This document shows, piece after piece, positions 7,402-44,918 of a DNA stretch of 64,000 nucleotides. The notes under the pieces are model-generated. The model saw nothing but the letters and a program-made list of their open reading frames with translations. It did not search any database and was not told where the DNA came from. The translations under genes were made by a program, and so were the position numbers. The stretch's first letter is position 1. Each line of letters opens with the position of its first letter. Source of the stretch: Microbacterium aoyamense (GTDB lineage: Bacteria; Actinomycetota; Actinomycetes; Actinomycetales; Microbacteriaceae). Where the stretch lies: assembly GCF_023155855.1 (NCBI RefSeq), contig NZ_JAKNUT010000001.1, positions 744,001 through 808,000 of the forward strand, written 5' to 3'.

Positions 7402-9887
7402 GAGCGGGTCATCTCTTCGATGAGCGACAGCGACGACATCTCGAGCGCGGGCGGACCGCCCTCGAAGTGCAGCTGCTCGATCGCGTGGCTGAGTCGCGCG
7501 ACCGCACCCGACGTGTCGGAGAGGAACGCGGCGAGGGCATCGCGCACGCCGTCGTCGGAGCGCGCGGTGAGAACCATGACGGGGACCGACTCGATCGATC
7601 CGATGATCTCGTGCAGCAGCCGCTCCGGACGCGTCGACCCCGTTGAGTCGGGCATCGCCGCCAGGGACGCCTGCACGCGATCGAGCGAGAACGCGATCGA
7701 GCGCGGGTTGGCGGCATCCTTGACGAGGAGATCCAGGATGCTGCGCACGCGCCCGTAGCCGCGGTATCGCCGCCGGTGGGTCACGAGGCTCTCAGCCGCG
7801 AGCAGCACGCCGTCGAGCACATCGCGATCGGCGGTCTGCGACCGCGGCGACTCGGTCACGGCGGTCAGGAGCGTGCACACCTGCAGCGCTCGCTCGAGGT
7901 AGCGGCCCGCTTCGATCATGTGCCAACCGGTGTCGCGGATCATGCTCGCCGTCACGCCGTGCAGCGACAGGACGCCCGTGAGCATCTGCTCGGCGGCGTC
8001 CGCGACCGACGACGGGTGGGTGGACTCGCGCAGCGTCGCGATCGCCCGATCGGCGTAGCTGAAGACGCGCCAGGTGTCGCCGGACAGCTGGTCGCGCACA
8101 CCCTCGAGCGCCGTGCGCATTCCCGAAAGGGCATGTGCCGCCGAGCCGGAGCGGTGCGCGTCGACGAGAGCGGAGCGCAGGTCGGCCTCGGCGCCGACCG
8201 ATCGCGACCCGGCCAGCCGCCGGAGCACGGTCAAGAGCGCACCGGCCGCCGCGGAGCGGTCGCCACCCGGACGATCGACGAGGGCCTGCGCCGCAATGAC
8301 GAGCCGGAGGGCGTCCTCGGCCCGCTCGGCGTAGCGTCCTGCCCAGTACATGTCCGCGAGCGCACGTGGTGCGAAGGCCGGGATCGAGGGCTCCATCGCG
8401 CGCGGGGAGGCCGTCGGCAGACCCTGATCGCTCTCGGAGGCATCAGCCTTGCGCACCCAGACGTCCTTCGTCAGCGGAGCGCCCGCGTCGTCCCGCGCCG
8501 TCGCGAGTCCACCCGCGAGCGTGCGGTACGCCGGGCCATGGCGGAGCGTGAACGCGCGGACGACGAGCGTGCGCGCCCGTGCCTCGCCGCCCGGCCCCCA
8601 GACGGGCGCCTGCGAGAGCGGCAGCCGCTCGATGCCGACGAAGCGGTAGGGATGCGCTCGGATCATCGCTTCGAGGTCGTCCCCAGGCACGGCGCGTCCC
8701 GCGAGAGTCCGCACGAGGATCGACTCGGGGTCGCGTCGGAGCCGCTCCAGGACCTGATCGAGGCCGCCGTCGCCGCACCACCACGCCGGCGCCGCGGGCA
8801 GACGCAGCTGCTCGCCGAGCAGGCGCTCGCACGCCGCGGGCAGGAACGGCAGCAGAGCCGGATTCTCGAGCACTCCGGCGCCCAGGCCGTTGACGACGCG
8901 TACGCGCCCGCGCCTGACGGCCTCGACGAGCCCCGCGACGCCGAGCCGCGAATCGCCGCGCAGTTCGAGGGGATCCGACCACTCCGAGTCGACGCGGCGC
9001 AGGATGACGTCGACCCGATCGACGGGCTTCGAACGCGGCCAGCGCGGCGGTTTGATCCACACGCTCCCCTCGCTCACGACGAGGTCGCTGCCCTGCACGA
9101 GCGGGAAGCCGAGGGAGTTCGCGATGAAGGCCTGGTCGTACGCCGTCTCGGAGTGCGTCCCCGGCGACAGCACCACGACGCGAGGATCGGTGTCGTCCAC
9201 GGCGGCGCACTGCAGCAGCGCATCGCGGAAGGCCGCGAAGAACGGTTCGAGTCGGTGCACATCGGCCTCGCGGTAGAGCTCGGGCAGCAGGCGCGAGACG
9301 ACCGAGCGGTTCGTCATGGCGTAGCCCAACCCCGACGGAGCCTGCACCCGGTCGGCGAGCACGCGCCATTCGCCGTCCGCGTCGCGGCCGAGATCGGTCG
9401 CCGTCATGAGGAGCGGGTGCGTCGTCCCGACACTCGGCCGTGCGACGGCGCGGATGAACCCGGGGTGGGCGACGATCGCCGCGGCGGGGATCACCCCGTC
9501 GGCGAGCAGGCGCTGCTCGCCGTAGACGTCGGCCATGATCGCGTTCAGAAGCTCGGCGCGCTGCGCGAGCCCTGTCTGCAGGCTGTTCCACGTGGATGCC
9601 TCGAGCACGAGCGGGAACGGGTCGAGCCGCCACGGCCGCGCCCCGTCTCGGTGCGTGTAGGTGACGCCGTCGTCGGCCAGAGCGCGCGCGATCTCGGCAT
9701 CCACTCTCGCGATCTCGGAGGACGTGAGATCCAGCGTCGCCGATGCGATCGACTTCCACGCAGGTCGCAGCGTGCCCTCGGGCCCGATCACCTCGTCGAA
9801 GCGCGACACGGCCCCCGTCGGATCGTCCGACAGGGGAAGCAGCGGCGCTTGCGTGAGTCCCGCCGCGTAGTCGTGGAGCACACTCAC
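7398..9887 (-). CDS. Circularly permuted ATP-grasp amidoligase fused to alpha-E domain
   Basis: The 829-residue protein fuses a circularly permuted ATP-grasp enzyme (COG2308-type, about residues 1-490, with LLNAIMADVYGEQRLL, VLSPGTHSETAYDQAFIA and the VRVVNGLGAGVLENPAL nucleotide-binding region) to an alpha-E helical domain (COG2307-type, from about residue 510, opening MYWAGRYAERAEDALRL). ATP-grasp enzymes ligate an acid to an amine through an acyl phosphate. The GTG at 9887 overlaps the stop of the DUF2126 gene (GTGA). A much longer open frame continues upstream through that gene, but it is a shadow. In other genomes the two domains are often separate genes; here they are one. Substrate and product are unknown. 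Confidence 0.9.
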   Translation of the reverse strand: MSVLHDYAAGLTQAPLLPLSDDPTGAVSRFDEVIGPEGTLRPAWKSIASATLDLTSSEIARVDAEIARALADDGVTYTHRDGARPWRLDPFPLVLEASTWNSLQTGLAQRAELLNAIMADVYGEQRLLADGVIPAAAIVAHPGFIRAVARPSVGTTHPLLMTATDLGRDADGEWRVLADRVQAPSGLGYAMTNRSVVSRLLPELYREADVHRLEPFFAAFRDALLQCAAVDDTDPRVVVLSPGTHSETAYDQAFIANSLGFPLVQGSDLVVSEGSVWIKPPRWPRSKPVDRVDVILRRVDSEWSDPLELRGDSRLGVAGLVEAVRRGRVRVVNGLGAGVLENPALLPFLPAACERLLGEQLRLPAAPAWWCGDGGLDQVLERLRRDPESILVRTLAGRAVPGDDLEAMIRAHPYRFVGIERLPLSQAPVWGPGGEARARTLVVRAFTLRHGPAYRTLAGGLATARDDAGAPLTKDVWVRKADASESDQGLPTASPRAMEPSIPAFAPRALADMYWAGRYAERAEDALRLVIAAQALVDRPGGDRSAAAGALLTVLRRLAGSRSVGAEADLRSALVDAHRSGSAAHALSGMRTALEGVRDQLSGDTWRVFSYADRAIATLRESTHPSSVADAAEQMLTGVLSLHGVTASMIRDTGWHMIEAGRYLERALQVCTLLTAVTESPRSQTADRDVLDGVLLAAESLVTHRRRYRGYGRVRSILDLLVKDAANPRSIAFSLDRVQASLAAMPDSTGSTRPERLLHEIIGSIESVPVMVLTARSDDGVRDALAAFLSDTSGAVARLSHAIEQLHFEGGPPALEMSSLSLIEEMTRS

Positions 9888-33019: not shown

Positions 33020-36824
<3,805 letters not shown>

Positions 36825-36916
36825 CCCTGTGCCGTAGGGGAGTCGTGAGGGCGCCCGCCGCGCCCGTATGGATTGCGTGAGGACGGCGTCTCACGGGTCT
36901 GCCCCGGTGTTGCATC

Positions 36917-36952
36917 GGTGATCGTGCCTTGTACCGGCACGTCCCGATCACC
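36917..36952 (+). promoter_or_regulatory. Leader hairpin just upstream of the kdp operon
   Basis: An 8-bp outer stem (GGTGATCG/CGATCACC) encloses an inner TGCC/GGCA stem-loop, 11 bp before the first small kdp ORF. It could end sufU transcription, act in the kdp leader or bind KdpE. The remainder of the 139-bp gap holds no gene. A dedicated potassium riboswitch was not recognised. Confidence 0.5.
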
Positions 36953-36963
36953 CTGGAGTCCCT

Positions 36964-37047
36964 GTGCTGGATGTCATCTACCTCGTCGCGACGCTCGCGC
37001 TCTTCGCGCTCGTCGGACTGATCGCGAAGGGGGCCGAGAAACTCTGA
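36964..37047 (+). CDS. 27-residue membrane peptide preceding KdpF
   Basis: A GTG-started ORF encodes one hydrophobic helix (VIYLVATLALFALVGLIAKG) with a basic C-terminal end (AEKL). A GGAG ribosome site lies 5 nt upstream, and the TGATG stop-start overlap with kdpF shows coupled translation. It resembles KdpF in size and topology but is a separate gene. It may be an additional small subunit or regulator of the Kdp complex. Its function is unknown, and its short length limits certainty. Confidence 0.65.
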   Translation: MLDVIYLVATLALFALVGLIAKGAEKL

Positions 37048-37136
37048 TGATCGTCTTCTCGCTCATCGCGGCAGCCCTCGGCATCGCCGCCATCGTCTAC
37101 CTCGTCGTCGCGCTCGTGAAGCCGGAGAAGTTCTGA
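37047..37136 (+). CDS. kdpF: Potassium-transporting ATPase small subunit KdpF
   Basis: The 29-residue peptide ends VALVKPEKF, the typical KdpF C-terminus, after a single transmembrane helix ([19 protein letters not shown]). KdpF stabilises the KdpABC complex in the membrane. It overlaps both the preceding small ORF and kdpA through TGATG junctions. Confidence 0.9.
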
Positions 37137-38817
37137 TGGATGCCGCCACCATCTGGACCGGCGTCCTTCAGATCGCCACGGTCCTGCTTATCCTCGCGCT
37201 CCTGTACCGCCCGCTCGGCGACTGGATCGCGCACCTCTACACCTCGGCGAAGGACTGGCGCGTCGAGCGCGGCACCTATCGCCTCGTCGGCGTCGACCCC
37301 GCGTCCGAGCAGACCTGGCAGGCGTACGCCCGAGGAGTCCTCGTCTTCTCGGTCGCCGGCGTCCTGTTCGTCTACGCGCTGCAGCGGTTCCAGGCGGTTC
37401 TGCCCTACTCGCTCGGCCTCCCCGCCGTCGAGCCGGGACTCGCGTTCAACACCGCCGTGTCGTTCGTACCAACACGAACTGGCAGTCGTACTCGCCCGAG
37501 CTGACGCTCGGCTACACGGTTCAGCTCGCCGGGCTCGCGGTGCAGAACTTCGTCTCGGCCGCCGTCGGCATCGCCGTCGCGATCGCGCTCGTCCGCGGCT
37601 TCTCGCGTCGCGGATCGGCGACGATCGGCAACTTCTGGGTCGACCTCGTACGCGGCATCACGCGCCTGCTCCTGCCCCTGTCGATCCTCATGGCGATCGC
37701 CCTCCTCATCGCGGGCGTCGTGCAGAACTTCAACGGCTTCGTCGAGGTCGGCACGATCACGGGCGGCCCGCAGGTGCTCCCGGGCGGCCCCGTCGCCTCG
37801 CAGGAGGCGATCAAGGAGCTCGGCACGAACGGCGGCGGCTTCTTCAACGCGAACTCGGCTCACCCGTTCGAAAATCCGGCGCCCTGGACGAGCGTGCTGG
37901 AGATCCTCATGCTCCTCGCGATACCGTTCGCGATGCCCCGGGCCTTCGGAAAGTTGGTCGGCGACAACCGCCAGGGCTACGCGATCCTCGGCGTCATGGC
38001 GACGCTCTTCCTCGTCTCGATCGTCGCGCTCACGTGGCTCGAATCGCTCGGCCTCGGCACAGCGCCGCAGCTCGCGGGTGGCGCGATGGAGGGCAAGGAG
38101 GTCCGCTACGGAATCTTCGGCTCGACGCTCTTCGCCGGCGCGACGACCCTGACCTCGACGGGCGCCGTCAACTCGATGCACGACTCGTACACGGCCCTCG
38201 GCGGCATGATGCCGATGATCAACATGATGCTCGGCGAAGTCGCGCCCGGCGGTGTCGGAGCGGGCCTCTACGGCATGCTCGTGCTCGCCGTCATCGCGGT
38301 GTTCGTCGGCGGTCTGCTCATCGGCCGGACGCCCGAGTACCTCGGCAAGAAGATCGGGCCGCGCGAGATCAAGATCGCGTCGCTCTACATCCTCGTCACG
38401 CCGTTCCTGATCCTGACGGGCGTCGCCCTGAGCTTCGCGATCCCCGGCATCCGTGCCGACGTCGAAGCCGTCTCGATCTGGAACCCCGGCGTGCACGGTC
38501 TGTCGGAGCTCGTCTACGCGTTCACGTCGGCCGCCAACAACAACGGCTCGGCGTTCGCCGGGCTCACGGCCAACACCCCGTGGCTGAATACGGCGCTCGG
38601 CGTCGCGATGCTGCTCGGCCGGTTCATCCCGATCGTGCTCGTGCTCGCCCTCGCCGGTTCGCTCGCCTCGCAGGAGCGCGTGCCCTCGACCGTCGGCACG
38701 CTCCCCACCCACCGCCCGCAGTTCGTCGGCCTCCTCGCCGTCGTCGCGGTCGTGATCACCGCACTCACCTATTTCCCGGTCCTGACCCTCGGACCGCTCG
38801 CTGAAGGACTTGTCTGA
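37136..38817 (+). pseudogene. kdpA: Potassium-transporting ATPase channel subunit KdpA, interrupted by a one-base deletion
   Basis: KdpA forms the potassium-selective channel of the KdpFABC pump. Codons 1-110 read [12 protein letters not shown] to FNTAVSF. The expected VTNTNWQSY then appears only if one base is added between 37467 and 37468. The second frame (from TNTNWQSY, 37468 on) continues intact to 38817, with filter-like segments [27 protein letters not shown] and [12 protein letters not shown]. With one base restored the product is 560 residues, a normal length. As read, translation stops at 37504 after 122 residues. The rest of the operon is intact, so this is either a recent mutation or an assembly error. 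Confidence 0.92.
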
Positions 38818-40964
38818 TGTCCACGTCCACCGTCCACACCCCCGTCGAGGGGCACGTCGCACCGAAGACGCCGACGCCGTCGCGCGCGTTCAGCGGAGCG
38901 CAGCTCGTGCAGGCGCTCCCGGGCGCGCTGCGCAAGCTCAACCCGGCTGCGCTCTGGCGCAACCCCGTCATGTTCCTCGTGTGGGTGGGCGCCGCCCTCA
39001 CGACCGTCATCGCGATCGCCGAGCCCTTCCTCGGCGGCCCCGAAGCCTCGGGCGGCACGCCCGTGCCGTTCGGGTTCACGTGGGGGATCGCGATCTGGCT
39101 GTGGCTCACGGTGCTCTTCGCCAACCTCGCGGAGTCCGTCGCCGAGGGCCGCGGCAAGGCGCAGGCTCAGGCGCTGCGCAAGACCCGCACCTCGACGATG
39201 GCGCGCCGCGTCGCCCGGTACGACGGTGGGGACGCGATGGATGCCGAGACCGTCTCGGTATCGTCGGCCGAGCTGACCCTCGGCGATGTCGTCATCGTCG
39301 AGACGGGCGAGCTCATCCCCGGCGACGGCGACATCGTCGCGGGGATCGCGACCGTCGACGAGTCGGCGATCACGGGCGAGTCCGCGCCGGTCGTCCGCGA
39401 ATCGGGCGGCGACCGCTCGGCCGTCACGGGCGGCACCCGCGTGCTGTCGGACCGCATCGTCGTGAAGATCACATCGAAGCCCGGCGAGACGTTCGTCGAC
39501 CGCATGATCTCCCTCGTCGAAGGCGCGTCGCGCCAGAAGACGCCGAACGAGATCGCGCTCGGCATCCTGCTCGCGAGCCTGTCGATCGTCTTCGTCGTGG
39601 TCGTGCTGACGCTCAACCCGATCGCGTCGTACGCGGCATCCCCCGTGTCGATCCCCGTGCTCGTCGCGCTGCTCATCTGCCTCATCCCGACGACCATCGG
39701 CGCGCTCCTGAGCGCGATCGGCATCGCCGGCATGGACCGTCTCGTGCAGCGCAACGTGCTCGCGATGTCGGGCCGCGCCGTCGAGGCGGCCGGTGACGTC
39801 ACGACACTCCTCCTCGACAAGACCGGCACGATCACCTACGGCAACCGCCGCGCCTCGGACTTCGTCGCGATGGCGGGGGTGGATGCCGGCGCCCTCGCCC
39901 GCATGGCCGCCCTGTCGTCGCTCGCCGACCCGACTCCCGAGGGCGTCTCGGTCGTCGAACTCGCGGCGGTGCGTGGCATCCACGTCGAGTCACCGTCGGA
40001 TGCCGTCATCGTGCCGTTCACGGCGCAGACCCGGATGTCGGGGCTCGACCTCGCGGACGGCACGCAGATCCGCAAGGGCGCCTCGTCCGCCGTGCTCGCA
40101 TGGCTCGAGGCATCCGGAACCCCTGTCGCCGCCGCGACGCGCGCGCAGATCACGAGCGAGACCGACGCGATCGCGCAGTCGGGCGGCACGCCGCTCGTCG
40201 TCGCCACCCTGTCGGGTTCGACGGGAGCAGTCCTCGGTGCCGTCCACCTCAAGGACATCGTCAAGGACGGCCTGCGCGAGCGGTTCGCAGAGCTGCGGGA
40301 GATGGGCATCCGCACCGTCATGATCACGGGCGACAACCCGCTCACCGCGGCCGCGGTCGCGAAGGAGGCCGGCGTCGACGACTACCTCGCCGAGGCGACC
40401 CCCGAAGACAAGCTCGCCCTCATGAAGCGCGAGCAGGAGGGCGGCAACCTCGTCGCGATGACCGGTGACGGCACGAACGACGCGCCGGCCCTGGCGCAGG
40501 CGGATGTCGGTGTCGCGATGAACACGGGCACGTCGGCGGCGAAGGAGGCCGGCAACATGGTCGACCTCGACAGCGACCCGACGAAGCTCATCGACATCGT
40601 GCGGATCGGAAAGCAGCTGCTCATCACGCGCGGATCCCTCACGACGTTCTCGCTCGCCAACGACATCGCGAAGTACTTCGCGATCATCCCGGCGATGTTC
40701 ATGGGCGTCTTCCCCGGCCTCGCCGCGCTCAACATCATGGGGCTCTCGTCGCCGGCATCCGCCGTCACGAGCGCGATCATCTTCAACGCGATCGTGATCG
40801 TCTTCCTCATCCCGCTGGCCCTGCGCGGCGTGAAGTACCGCGCCGCCTCGGCGTCCAGCATCCTGAGCCGCAATCTGCTCGTCTACGGGCTCGGCGGCAT
40901 CATCGCCCCCTTCATCGGCATCAAGCTCATCGACCTCGCAGTCAGCCTCATCCCGGGCTTCTAA
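38817..40964 (+). CDS. kdpB: Potassium-transporting ATPase catalytic subunit KdpB
   Basis: This P-type ATPase subunit of 715 residues powers potassium uptake. Motifs are [13 protein letters not shown] (actuator domain TGES), the phosphorylated Asp334 in [14 protein letters not shown], the nucleotide domain, and [22 protein letters not shown] for the hinge. Seven membrane segments are expected. It starts with ATG at 38817, overlapping the kdpA stop by one base. It is about 30 residues longer than the E. coli protein because of an N-terminal extension. All catalytic motifs are intact even though the partner kdpA is frameshifted. Confidence 0.96.
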
Positions 40965-40973
40965 GGAGAACCC

Positions 40974-41573
40974 ATGCGCACCACTCTTCGCACGACCGGC
41001 GTCGCGTTCCGCGCGATGCTCGTGTTCACCCTCGTGCTCGGCATCGGCTACACGCTGCTGATCACGGGCGTCGGTCAGCTGCTCCTGCCCTGGCAGGCGA
41101 ACGGATCGACCGTCACCGACTCGTCGGGTCAGGTCGTCGGCAGCTCGCTCATCGGGCAGTCCTTCACCGACGCCGACGGAAACCCTCTGCCCGAGTACTT
41201 CCAATCGCGGCCGTCCGCTGCCGGCGACGGGTACGACGGAGGAGCATCGAGCGGCTCCAACTGGGGCCCCGAGAACGCCGACCTCATCACCGCGATCGAG
41301 GAGCGCAAGGCGGCCATCGCCGCGTTCGAGGGTGTCGACGAGGCGCAGATCCCCGCGGACGCGGTCACCGCCTCGGCCTCGGGCCTCGACCCGCACATCT
41401 CGCCCGCCTACGCCCTGCTGCAGGCCGACCGTGTGGCCGAGGCCCGGGGCCTCGGCGAACAGGAGGTGCTCGACCTCGTCGCCGCGCACACCGAGTCGCG
41501 CGATCTCGGGTACTTGGGCGAGCCGCGCGTCAACGTGCTCGAGCTCAACCTCGCGCTCGACGCGCTGGGATGA
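40974..41573 (+). CDS. kdpC: Potassium-transporting ATPase subunit KdpC
   Basis: The 199-residue protein has one N-terminal membrane helix (AMLVFTLVLGIGYTLLITGVGQLLLP) and a periplasm-side domain with IGQSFTDADGNPLPEYFQSRPSAAG and SASGLDPHISPAYALLQADRVAEARGL, the standard KdpC blocks. It assists ATP binding by KdpB and stabilises the complex. A strong AAGGAGAA ribosome site precedes its ATG. It ends about 140 bp before kdpD, in a gap holding a large inverted repeat. Confidence 0.95.
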   Translation: MRTTLRTTGVAFRAMLVFTLVLGIGYTLLITGVGQLLLPWQANGSTVTDSSGQVVGSSLIGQSFTDADGNPLPEYFQSRPSAAGDGYDGGASSGSNWGPENADLITAIEERKAAIAAFEGVDEAQIPADAVTASASGLDPHISPAYALLQADRVAEARGLGEQEVLDLVAAHTESRDLGYLGEPRVNVLELNLALDALG

Positions 41574-41580
41574 CCGCCGT

Positions 41581-41674
41581 GCACAACTCCTGCAGATCGA
41601 GCGCCTGCGACCCGCAGGCCCGCGGCGATCCGTGTTCCGCTGCGGAAGCCCCTGCTGGTCTGCAGGAGTTGTGC
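41581..41674. repeat. 94-bp structured palindromic element between kdpC and kdpD
   Basis: Perfect 16-bp arms (GCACAACTCCTGCAGA at 41581-41596 and its complement at 41659-41674) enclose 62 bp that contain a further GCCTGC/GCAGGC hairpin (41602-41618). It may be a terminator or processing site that separates structural from regulatory kdp genes, or a dispersed intergenic palindrome. Only one copy is seen in this window. Confidence 0.7.
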
Positions 41675-41715
41675 GCGCGGGACGTCGCGCACTCCGCCCG
41701 TCGTAGGGTGATGCC

Positions 41716-44250
41716 ATGAAGCGCGGCAGGCTGCGGGTGCTCCTGGGAGCGGCCCCGGGCGTCGGCAAGACGTACGAGATGCTCGAGGAGGGCAAGCGGC
41801 TCCTCGCCGACGGCACCGACGTCGTCGTCGCGATCGTCGAGACGCACGGCCGTGTCGCCACCGCCGCGATGCTCGAAGGGATTCCCGTCCTCCCCCGCCA
41901 CACGGTGGCGCACCGCGGGGTCGATCTCACCGAGATGGACCTGGACGCTCTGCTCGACCGTCAGCCGAAGATCGCGCTCGTCGACGAACTCGCCCACACG
42001 AACGCGCCGGGCTCGCGCAATGCGAAGCGATGGCAGGACGTCGAGGAGATCCTGGATGCCGGGATCGACGTCATCACGACGGTCAACGTCCAGCACATCG
42101 AGTCCCTGGGCGGCGTCGTCGAGCAGATCACCGGCGTCGCCCAGCGCGAGACGGTTCCGGATGCCGTGGTCCGCGGCGCCGATCAGATCGAGGTCGTCGA
42201 CCTCACGCCCCAGTCGCTGCGCGATCGCCTGGCAGCGGGCTCGGTGTATCCGGCCGAGCGCGTCGACGCGGCACTGTCGAACTACTTCCGACTCGGCAAC
42301 CTCACCGCGCTGCGCGAGCTCGCCCTGCTGTGGCTCGCCGACGAGGTCGACTCGGCGCTGAAGTCCTACCGCGCCGAGCACGGCATCCAGGGCACCTGGC
42401 AGGCCCGCGAGCGCGTCGTCGTCGCCCTCACCGGTGGGCCCGAGGGCGAGACGCTGCTACGGCGAGGGGCACGGATCGCCGCGCGGTCGGCCGGCGGCGA
42501 GCTGCTCGCGATACACGTCTCCACTCAAGACGGGCTGCGCACCGGAAGCCCGGCTGCCCTCGCCCAGCAGCGCGCGCTCGTCGAGTCGCTCGGGGGCACC
42601 TACCACCAGGTGGTCGGCGACGACGTGCCACGCGCGCTGGTGGACTTCGCCCGCTCGGTCAACGCCTCGCAGCTCGTCATCGGCGTGAGTCGCCGTGGTC
42701 GACTCGCCGCCGCGCTCACCGGCCCCGGGATCGGCGCGACCGTCATCCGGGAGTCCGGCGACATCGACGTGCACATCGTGACGCACTCCTCCGCGGGAGG
42801 CTTCGCGCTGCCGCGACTCTCGGGTGGCGCGCTCAGCGTCAAGCGGCGCATCCTGGGCTTCGTCCTCGCGCTCACGGGCGGACCGCTGCTGACGTGGCTC
42901 CTCGTGGCGATCCGGTCCGAGGACACGATCACGAGCGATGTCCTGGCCTACCAGCTGCTCGTCGTCCTGGTGGCGCTCCTCGGAGGCATCTGGCCGGCGC
43001 TCTTCGCCGCCGTCATGTCCGGCCTGACGCTGAACTTCTTCTTCGTCGAGCCGTTCTACACGGTCACCGTCAGCGACCCGCGCAATGCATGGGCACTCGT
43101 GCTCTACGTCGTGATCGCCGTCCTGGTGAGCTTCGTCGTCGACCGCGCCGCTCGCGCGGCCCGCGCCGCACGGCGCGCCGCCGCGGAGTCCGAACTGCTC
43201 GCGACGGTCGCCGGCAGCGTGCTGCGTGGCGAGAGCGCGATCCCGGCGATGATCGCGCGCACCCGCGAATCTCTCGGACTCGCGGGCGTGCGTCTCATCG
43301 GCATCGACGGTGAGGTGCTCGCCGTCGACGGCGAGCCCGTTCGCGACGGCCGCTTCGAGTCGATTCCGGTCGACCGTGTCGGCTCGTCGGCCCGCGCAAC
43401 CCTCGAGCTGCACGGCAAAGACCTCGATGCCGCCGATCGCCGGCTCGTCGATGCGATCGTGGCCCAGCTCTCGGCCGCCCTCGAACACACCGACCTCGCC
43501 CAGACGGCACGCGAAGCCGGGATGCTGGCCGAGACCGATCAGGTGCGCTCCGCGCTGCTCTCGGCGGTGAGCCACGACCTGCGCCGCCCGCTGGCGGCGG
43601 CCGTGGCATCCATCGGCGGCCTCCGCGCCGCGACGAACCTCTCGCCCGAAGATCGCGAGGAGCTCCTCGCGACCGCCGACGAAAGCCTCGCGACACTCTC
43701 GACGCTCGTCACCGACCTGCTCGACGTGAGCCGCGTGCAGGCGGGCGTGCTCGCGATCTCGCTCGGACCGGTGGATCCATCCGGCGCCGTCCTGAGCGCG
43801 CTCGACGAGCTCTCGCTCGGTCCCGATGATGTCGAGCTCGCTCTCGATGCCGACCTGCCCTCCGTGCAGGCCGACGGCGTGCTGCTGCAGCGGGTCCTGG
43901 TCAATGTGCTCGCCAACGCGCGGCGCCACAGCCCGTCGGGGACGCCGCTCCTGGTGTCGACGAGCAGGCTCGGCGCGACCGCCGAGATCCGCATCATCGA
44001 CCGTGGCCCCGGTGTGCCGGCCGATCGCCTCGAGGACATGTTCTCGCCGTTCCAGCGTCTGGGCGATACCGACAACACGACCGGCCTCGGTCTCGGTCTC
44101 GCCCTCTCGAAGGGCTTCACCGACGGCATGGGCGGCACTCTCACCCCCGAGGACACCCCCGGCGGCGGCCTCACGATGGTCGTCTCGCTGCCCGTGTGGG
44201 GCGCGATACCCGCCACTGATAGCGTCGCGACGCAGGAGGGCCGCGCATGA
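41716..44250 (+). CDS. kdpD: Sensor histidine kinase KdpD
   Basis: The 844-residue kinase has the N-terminal KdpD domain with Walker A-like GAAPGVGKTYE (residues 11-21) and VDELAHTNAPGSRN, and a Usp-like domain (about 230-360). Then come four membrane segments (about 378-480), a GAF-like region, HisKA with His620 in SAVSHDLRRPLAA, and an HATPase domain (N-box NVLANARRHSPSG, GLGLGLALS). It senses potassium or turgor and phosphorylates KdpE. The ATG follows TAGGGT (41704-41709) by 6 nt, so kdpDE has its own leaderless promoter, independent of kdpFABC. Confidence 0.95.
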   Translation: MKRGRLRVLLGAAPGVGKTYEMLEEGKRLLADGTDVVVAIVETHGRVATAAMLEGIPVLPRHTVAHRGVDLTEMDLDALLDRQPKIALVDELAHTNAPGSRNAKRWQDVEEILDAGIDVITTVNVQHIESLGGVVEQITGVAQRETVPDAVVRGADQIEVVDLTPQSLRDRLAAGSVYPAERVDAALSNYFRLGNLTALRELALLWLADEVDSALKSYRAEHGIQGTWQARERVVVALTGGPEGETLLRRGARIAARSAGGELLAIHVSTQDGLRTGSPAALAQQRALVESLGGTYHQVVGDDVPRALVDFARSVNASQLVIGVSRRGRLAAALTGPGIGATVIRESGDIDVHIVTHSSAGGFALPRLSGGALSVKRRILGFVLALTGGPLLTWLLVAIRSEDTITSDVLAYQLLVVLVALLGGIWPALFAAVMSGLTLNFFFVEPFYTVTVSDPRNAWALVLYVVIAVLVSFVVDRAARAARAARRAAAESELLATVAGSVLRGESAIPAMIARTRESLGLAGVRLIGIDGEVLAVDGEPVRDGRFESIPVDRVGSSARATLELHGKDLDAADRRLVDAIVAQLSAALEHTDLAQTAREAGMLAETDQVRSALLSAVSHDLRRPLAAAVASIGGLRAATNLSPEDREELLATADESLATLSTLVTDLLDVSRVQAGVLAISLGPVDPSGAVLSALDELSLGPDDVELALDADLPSVQADGVLLQRVLVNVLANARRHSPSGTPLLVSTSRLGATAEIRIIDRGPGVPADRLEDMFSPFQRLGDTDNTTGLGLGLALSKGFTDGMGGTLTPEDTPGGGLTMVVSLPVWGAIPATDSVATQEGRA

Positions 44251-44918
44251 AGATCCTGGTCGCCGACGACGACCCGCAGCTCGTACGCGCGTTGCGCATC
44301 ACGCTCGCGGCGCACGGCTACGAGGTCGTCGCCGCACCTGACGGCGCTGCGGCGGTCGCGCTCGCCGCGAAGGAGCGCCCCGACATCGTGATGGTCGATC
44401 TCGGGATGCCGCGACTCGACGGCGTTCGCGTGATCGAGGCTCTTCGCGGCTGGACCAACGCGCCGATCATCGTCGTGTCGGGACGCACGGGTTCAGCCGA
44501 CAAGGTGGAGGCACTCGACGCCGGAGCCGACGACTACGTCACGAAGCCGTTCCAGATCGACGAGCTCCTCGCGCGGCTGCGCGCGCTCGGACGCCGCGCC
44601 GTGCCGTCGCCGAACGATCCGTTCGTCACCTTCGCCGACGTCGAGATCGATCTGGCCGCCAAGACGGTGACCCGGTCGGGACAGACCATCCACCTCACCC
44701 CCACCGAGTGGCGGATGCTCGAGTTCCTCGCCCGCAACCCGGGCTCGCTCGTCACTCGCCAGACGCTGCTGAAGGAGATCTGGTCGAGCGAACAGGTGAG
44801 CGACTCGGGCTACCTGCGGCTGTACATGTCGCAGCTGCGCAAGAAGCTCGAGGCCGACCCTGCGCATCCCGTGCACCTGCTCACCGAGCAGGGCATGGGC
44901 TACCGGCTCGTCGTATGA
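44247..44918 (+). CDS. kdpE: Response regulator KdpE
   Basis: The 223-residue OmpR-type regulator has a receiver domain with acidic D7-D9, phospho-acceptor Asp51 in VMVDLGMPRLDG and the conserved Lys in YVTKPF, then a winged-helix DNA-binding domain (about 125-223, with TPTEWRMLEFLARNPGSLVTRQ and LRKKLEADPAHPVHLLTEQGMGYRL). It activates kdpFABC when potassium is limiting. The ATG overlaps the kdpD stop by 4 bp. Its stop is 1 bp from the stop of the convergent terC gene. Confidence 0.95.
   Translation: MKILVADDDPQLVRALRITLAAHGYEVVAAPDGAAAVALAAKERPDIVMVDLGMPRLDGVRVIEALRGWTNAPIIVVSGRTGSADKVEALDAGADDYVTKPFQIDELLARLRALGRRAVPSPNDPFVTFADVEIDLAAKTVTRSGQTIHLTPTEWRMLEFLARNPGSLVTRQTLLKEIWSSEQVSDSGYLRLYMSQLRKKLEADPAHPVHLLTEQGMGYRLVV

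Follow-up and report, generated by a model that had tools for sequence, protein, structure and literature searches.

A kdpA gene one base short in an otherwise uninterrupted kdp operon of Microbacterium aoyamense

The kdpA gene of Microbacterium aoyamense (37136-38817, plus strand, of the 64,000-nucleotide stretch of contig NZ_JAKNUT010000001.1 that was analysed, here called the window) is one base short, as found from a reading of the sequence and from comparison with relatives. The genome is a 3.9-Mb draft in 18 contigs, and the gene lies in an operon (36964-44918, plus strand) that runs from a small open reading frame of 27 amino acids through kdpF, kdpA, kdpB, kdpC, kdpD and kdpE, the presence of kdpF, kdpB and kdpC alongside it being as expected of a true kdpA. 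Judging from the contig sequence alone, we put at about 52% the chance that the sequenced isolate has truly and recently lost this one base, and with it the function of the gene. The lesion is an ordinary, isolated one, which arose either by recent mutation or through a slip in sequencing.

Between 37440 and 37500 the frame set by the kdpA start codon at 37136 encodes AFNTAVSF, and TNTNWQSY is encoded in a different frame. The distance from the Ser-Phe codons to the TNTN codons is 2 bases here and 3 in all 109 relatives' loci (80 from contigs of genus genomes and 29 from a genome search; the two sets may overlap in genomes), which bears out the one-base deletion claimed by the sequence-only reading. 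A frame scan using codon usage, free of homology, places the switch at 37449. There is no single open frame of around 560 codons; after native codon 110 the start frame continues for 12 out-of-frame codons to a stop at 37504, and the second piece is out of frame with the first. Taken together the pieces nevertheless describe an entire protein: 110 codons, one damaged codon and 449 codons add up to the 560 residues predicted earlier for the corrected KdpA, with the native stop at 38815-38817 overlapping the kdpB start. The PF03814 profile was covered from 2 to 105 in one frame and from 106 to 548 in the other, giving a match to KdpA over the whole profile, and a 425-residue open reading frame from 37540 matches TIGR00680 from 139 to 560 with 547.7 bits. 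Among named genomes, Microbacterium yannicii PS01 gives the best match to the 3' piece, 89% identical over its top segment. The remaining kdp reading frames are uninterrupted (Table 1), so that the description of the operon as otherwise intact stands.

Table 1. Features of the kdp region, in window coordinates
Feature	Coordinates	Strand	Description
kimA-like K+ permease	33020..35128	+	702 aa, uninterrupted; phmmer to KimA chain 6s3k E 3.6e-115; PF13520 92.3 bits
27-aa hydrophobic ORF	36964..37047	+	GTG start; upstream of kdpF
kdpF	37047..37136	+	29 aa; PF09604 30.7 bits (cut-off 21.2); TIGR02115 24.3 bits, below cut-off 26.85
kdpA 5' fragment	37136..37504	+	122 codons, first 110 native KdpA; TIGR00680 profile 4-115; PF03814
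inverted repeat	37462..37479		perfect 6 bp, 6-nt loop; lesion at boundary of left arm and loop
kdpA lesion	37466-37467	+	two bases in place of the relatives' full codon
kdpA 3' fragment	37468..38817	+	out of frame with start; 449 codons + stop
kdpB	38817..40964	+	715 aa, uninterrupted; TIGR01497 975.5 bits
kdpC	40974..41573	+	199 aa, uninterrupted; TIGR00681 214.1 bits
kdpD sensor kinase	41716..44250	+	844 aa, uninterrupted; best NCBIfam KdpD (PRK10490) 484.8 bits, below cut-off 1123
kdpE response regulator	44250..44918	+	222 aa, uninterrupted; best NCBIfam KdpE (PRK10529) 226.3 bits, below cut-off 325

The small reading frame at the head of the operon overlaps the kdpF start (TGATG) and gave no match in Pfam or NCBIfam. 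A reading frame resembling it is found upstream of kdpA in 80 of 80 loci from genus contigs, with GTG at its start in 77 and a stop directly after codon 27 in 53. Across 70 distinct ungapped sequences this frame has the lowest pN/pS of the three (0.57, against 0.98 and 1.28) and most of the variation falls at the third codon position. Its product may be another small membrane subunit of Kdp, so far unnamed, in this group of actinobacteria. A search of the window against Rfam at gathering thresholds returned no match.

As the sequence-only reading had noted, there is no homopolymer at the lesion, the sole run of at least four equal bases in 37301-37560 being CCCC at around 37420, and no slippery heptamer of the form X-XXY-YYZ occurs in 37117-37504. 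These absences bear on whether programmed -1 frameshifting or reversible phase variation could restore full-length KdpA in some ribosomes or cells. Both frames are open from around 37117 to 37504, where a suitable -1 shift would yield a full-length protein with one residue changed, and a 6-bp hairpin spans the lesion. However, RNA folding of the 99 nucleotides from the hairpin onward is unremarkable (z -1.54), and the two-frame arrangement is seen in none of the 109 relatives' loci. A programmed -1 frameshift was therefore rejected, for want of a heptamer, of more than ordinary downstream folding and of conservation; recoding at this lesion is unlikely, and we give restoration of KdpA by this means or by phase variation only a very slight chance. 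Slighter again is the chance that the hairpin is a mutable site at which kdpA is switched by template-switch deletion and repair, or that recoding proceeds here free of a classical heptamer, such that only part of the population would have Kdp. The association with the inverted repeat is itself mild and post hoc, and may be mutational in origin: of the 11880 positions in 33020-44900, 361 fall within or border the loop of such a 6-bp repeat.

A cell that truly lacks the base would be expected to have lost Kdp function. By alignment the first residue past the break is Thr111 of TNTNWQ, which corresponds to residues 111-116 of E. coli KdpA and ends in Gln116, so the break directly precedes the first selectivity-filter segment of the protein, and it is from this position that the loss of function would follow. 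Translation from the kdpA start would leave the native frame after residue 110 and terminate 12 codons later. No ATG, GTG or TTG is present in the open frame of the 3' piece before 37540, and therefore a restart product, which would begin at around TIGR00680 position 139, would not include the first filter segment. TNTNWQ lies 5' of 37540 and out of frame with the kdpA start, and is thus found in no product from an ordinary start. In these circumstances a working KdpFABC pump would probably not be formed.

The age of the lesion was assessed by comparing the window with 29 of the 80 genus loci, kept for having at least 80% identity in the 3' KdpA piece, at least 85% coverage of each piece and no stop. 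Among the resulting 30, the pN/pS of the window ranks 9 and 11 for the two kdpA pieces, 17 for kdpB and 19 for kdpC. Changes at otherwise invariant sites number 1 and 3 in the kdpA pieces, 4 in kdpB and 0 in kdpC, where the maxima among the relatives are 2, 10, 6 and 3, respectively. No relaxed constraint was seen in the kdpA pieces by either measure against these 29 relatives, and kdpA has no further lesions. The broken reading frame is what would be seen in an old pseudogene within a decaying operon, but such a gene would not be expected to be free of a second lesion, to be followed by uninterrupted kdpB to kdpE, or to keep kdpA, kdpB and kdpC inside the range of the relatives in both pN/pS and changes at invariant sites. 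Old decay of kdpA was rejected on these two measures and is highly improbable. Since neither piece shows relaxed constraint, the lesion is either very recent or absent from the cell; kdpA appears from these comparisons to have escaped normal constraint only very recently, if at all. The ordinary pN/pS of the pieces fits an error as well as it fits a recent mutation.

The quality of the assembly bears on the possibility of a sequencing or assembly error, in which kdpA is intact in the cell and the base has been lost only from the contig. The sample comprised 404,000 bases of the genome (the window and 17 further stretches), of which relatives' reading frames from 83 source loci covered 70,919 bases (17.6%); this coverage is biased to the kdp region, since kdp loci make up 80 of the 83 sources. 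With a strand filter and longer reading frames, the break in kdpA is the only frameshift accepted in the 70,919 covered bases. Two flags remained after filtering, at 37500 and 41000. The latter came from 6 sources and first looked like a kdpB-kdpC fusion, but was rejected as the kdpB/kdpC junction with a shadow frame of kdpB: in the one of the six sources checked (L049) it is a kdpB shadow frame in phase with kdpC, and kdpB and kdpC share one open frame in 0 of 76 loci. A first scan of the window, run without the strand filter, had given ten flags besides 37500 (rounded to 34000, 36900, 37100, 37400, 38800, 38900, 41000, 44200, 45800 and 45900), mostly from 1 to 10 queries each, with 31 at 41000. 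The flag at 37400 is taken as the kdpA break seen from the antisense strand and the others as gene junctions, antisense reading frames or breaks in the queries.

Strong switches in the codon-usage scan numbered 3 in 404 kb of this genome, 0 in 212 kb of G165, 3 in 200 kb of G053 and 30 in 340 kb of G044. The last of these was intended as a clean control and shows only that the scan sees an indel-rich assembly; G165 and G053 were then added. In G044 (L163-L179, a single contig) the rate of strong switches is around twelve times that of the genome studied here, and its assembly seems to be rich in indels. The break in kdpA passes the threshold narrowly (6.3 and 6.3 against 6, a value set after the first run). 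The second strong flag in this genome (L146, 9512) is by eye a repetitive stretch, and the third, at 36845 of the window, falls on the minus strand across from the genes that precede kdpF. A looser threshold flagged 26 places. For 16 of these the opening 50 and closing 60 residues of both reading frames concerned were viewed by eye, and the places resemble junctions between genes or shadow frames of opposite-strand genes. The scan is insensitive, having missed the kdpA break of G165 with the locus that carries it (L160) in its sample; this slightly lowers the odds of a real mutation and raises those of an error.

The assembly is thus not rich in indels, but one stray error per genome is not improbable. 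Residual sequencing errors are not usually deletions outside homopolymers; the arm-loop boundary of an inverted repeat is, on the other hand, a setting in which base calls can go wrong, and the lesion lies at just such a boundary. An error would also account for a single lesion in an otherwise uninterrupted operon and for normal constraint in both pieces of kdpA, and because the codon-usage scan can miss frameshifts, only the 70,919 covered bases inform on the error rate. Against this, the lack of a homopolymer and of any other accepted frameshift in those bases indicates that errors are infrequent, even if some per genome may still occur. We hold an error to be somewhat short of an even chance. 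The points in favour of a real deletion are the longer spacing in every relative's locus, the standing of this break as the sole frameshift accepted, the absence of a homopolymer and the small number of codon-usage switches; further points are the accessory nature of Kdp, the presence of other kdp breaks in the genus and the uninterrupted state of the other potassium systems.

Kdp is accessory in the genus. A PF03814 match is present in 127 of 198 genus genomes and missing from 71; among those of good quality (completeness of 90% or more, contamination of 5% or less, n=180) it is present in 118 and missing from 62. A family-wide search gave a kdpA match in 214 of 398 genomes. Among the 127 genus genomes, two adjacent kdpA matches in two frames on one contig are found in this genome and in G165, a tally that was taken from the match table with the loci of other genomes examined only in part.

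Several of these loci carry irregularities of their own. In G165 (L160, G165:C1:918001-930000, 7505-7520) the kdpA frame breaks at around residue 408, next to four consecutive G; in G001 (L162, G001:C5:3417000-3427000, around 4000) it breaks near residue 46; and in G176 (L161, G176:C1:11000-20000, around 4855) it is kdpB that breaks, at residue 160. These three breaks may themselves be errors. The kdpA of G063 is split over two contigs, G172 has a partial kdpB and G162 has a weak match to kdpA over its full length. In M. lacus SDZm4 (L082) the match to kdpB extends over residues 1-459 alone, and in M. helvum NEAU-LLC (L097) about residues 96-456 are missing from it. Weaker or split kdpA matches, among the family matches listed, include those in G245, G365, G374, G404, G410, G549, G587 and G597.

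The genome retains other routes for potassium uptake. The permease gene upstream of the kdp operon is indeed KimA-like, as the sequence-only reading had suggested, and its proposal that this permease would carry the potassium load holds in so far as the KimA relative is nearby and uninterrupted; it is not alone, however, as a TrkH/TrkA-type pair at around G000:C1:181.9-184.0 kb is also uninterrupted, with PF02386 in a 493-residue and PF02254 in a 223-residue reading frame. The search of this genome for Kup (PF02705) gave a single weak match, under the cut-off and within the KimA-like gene itself. With Kdp lost, potassium would enter by KimA and the TrkH/TrkA-type system. In published work, the high-affinity potassium systems of B. 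subtilis are KtrAB and KimA (PMC5573677), Kdp is present in 319 of 1,510 E. faecalis genomes (PMC9945522), and E. faecalis strain JH2-2 lacks Kdp but retains KimA and Ktr-type systems (PMC9945522). Since other potassium systems are present and a strain without Kdp has been published, loss of Kdp here would presumably be tolerable and unremarkable.

When this genome is annotated, kdpA should be flagged as disrupted or doubtful, and a working Kdp pump should not be deduced from the presence of the operon. The significance is local only: this is one more case among the kdp frame breaks recorded in a genus in which Kdp is accessory. The same kdpA lesion is not described in the titles and abstract openings of the papers listed on kdpA frameshifts, Microbacterium potassium, the KdpA filter and kdpF.

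In comparison with known systems, the window keeps the E. coli gene order F-A-B-C-D-E, and both pieces of its kdpA are collinear with the E. coli protein (PDB 6hra, 5mrw), the 5' piece aligning from residue 5 to the break and the 3' piece from Thr111 to residue 556; the difference is that the gene here is one base short at the codon before Thr111 and hence lies in two frames. The breaks in kdpA of G165 and G001 and in kdpB of G176 are alike in that the frame is broken at one place in a gene that otherwise matches over its length, but they fall at other positions than the break in the window and hence are independent events or errors. E. faecalis JH2-2 resembles the present case in that other potassium systems including KimA remain, and differs in that its kdp genes are tabulated as absent, whereas here they are present with a single lesion (PMC9945522).
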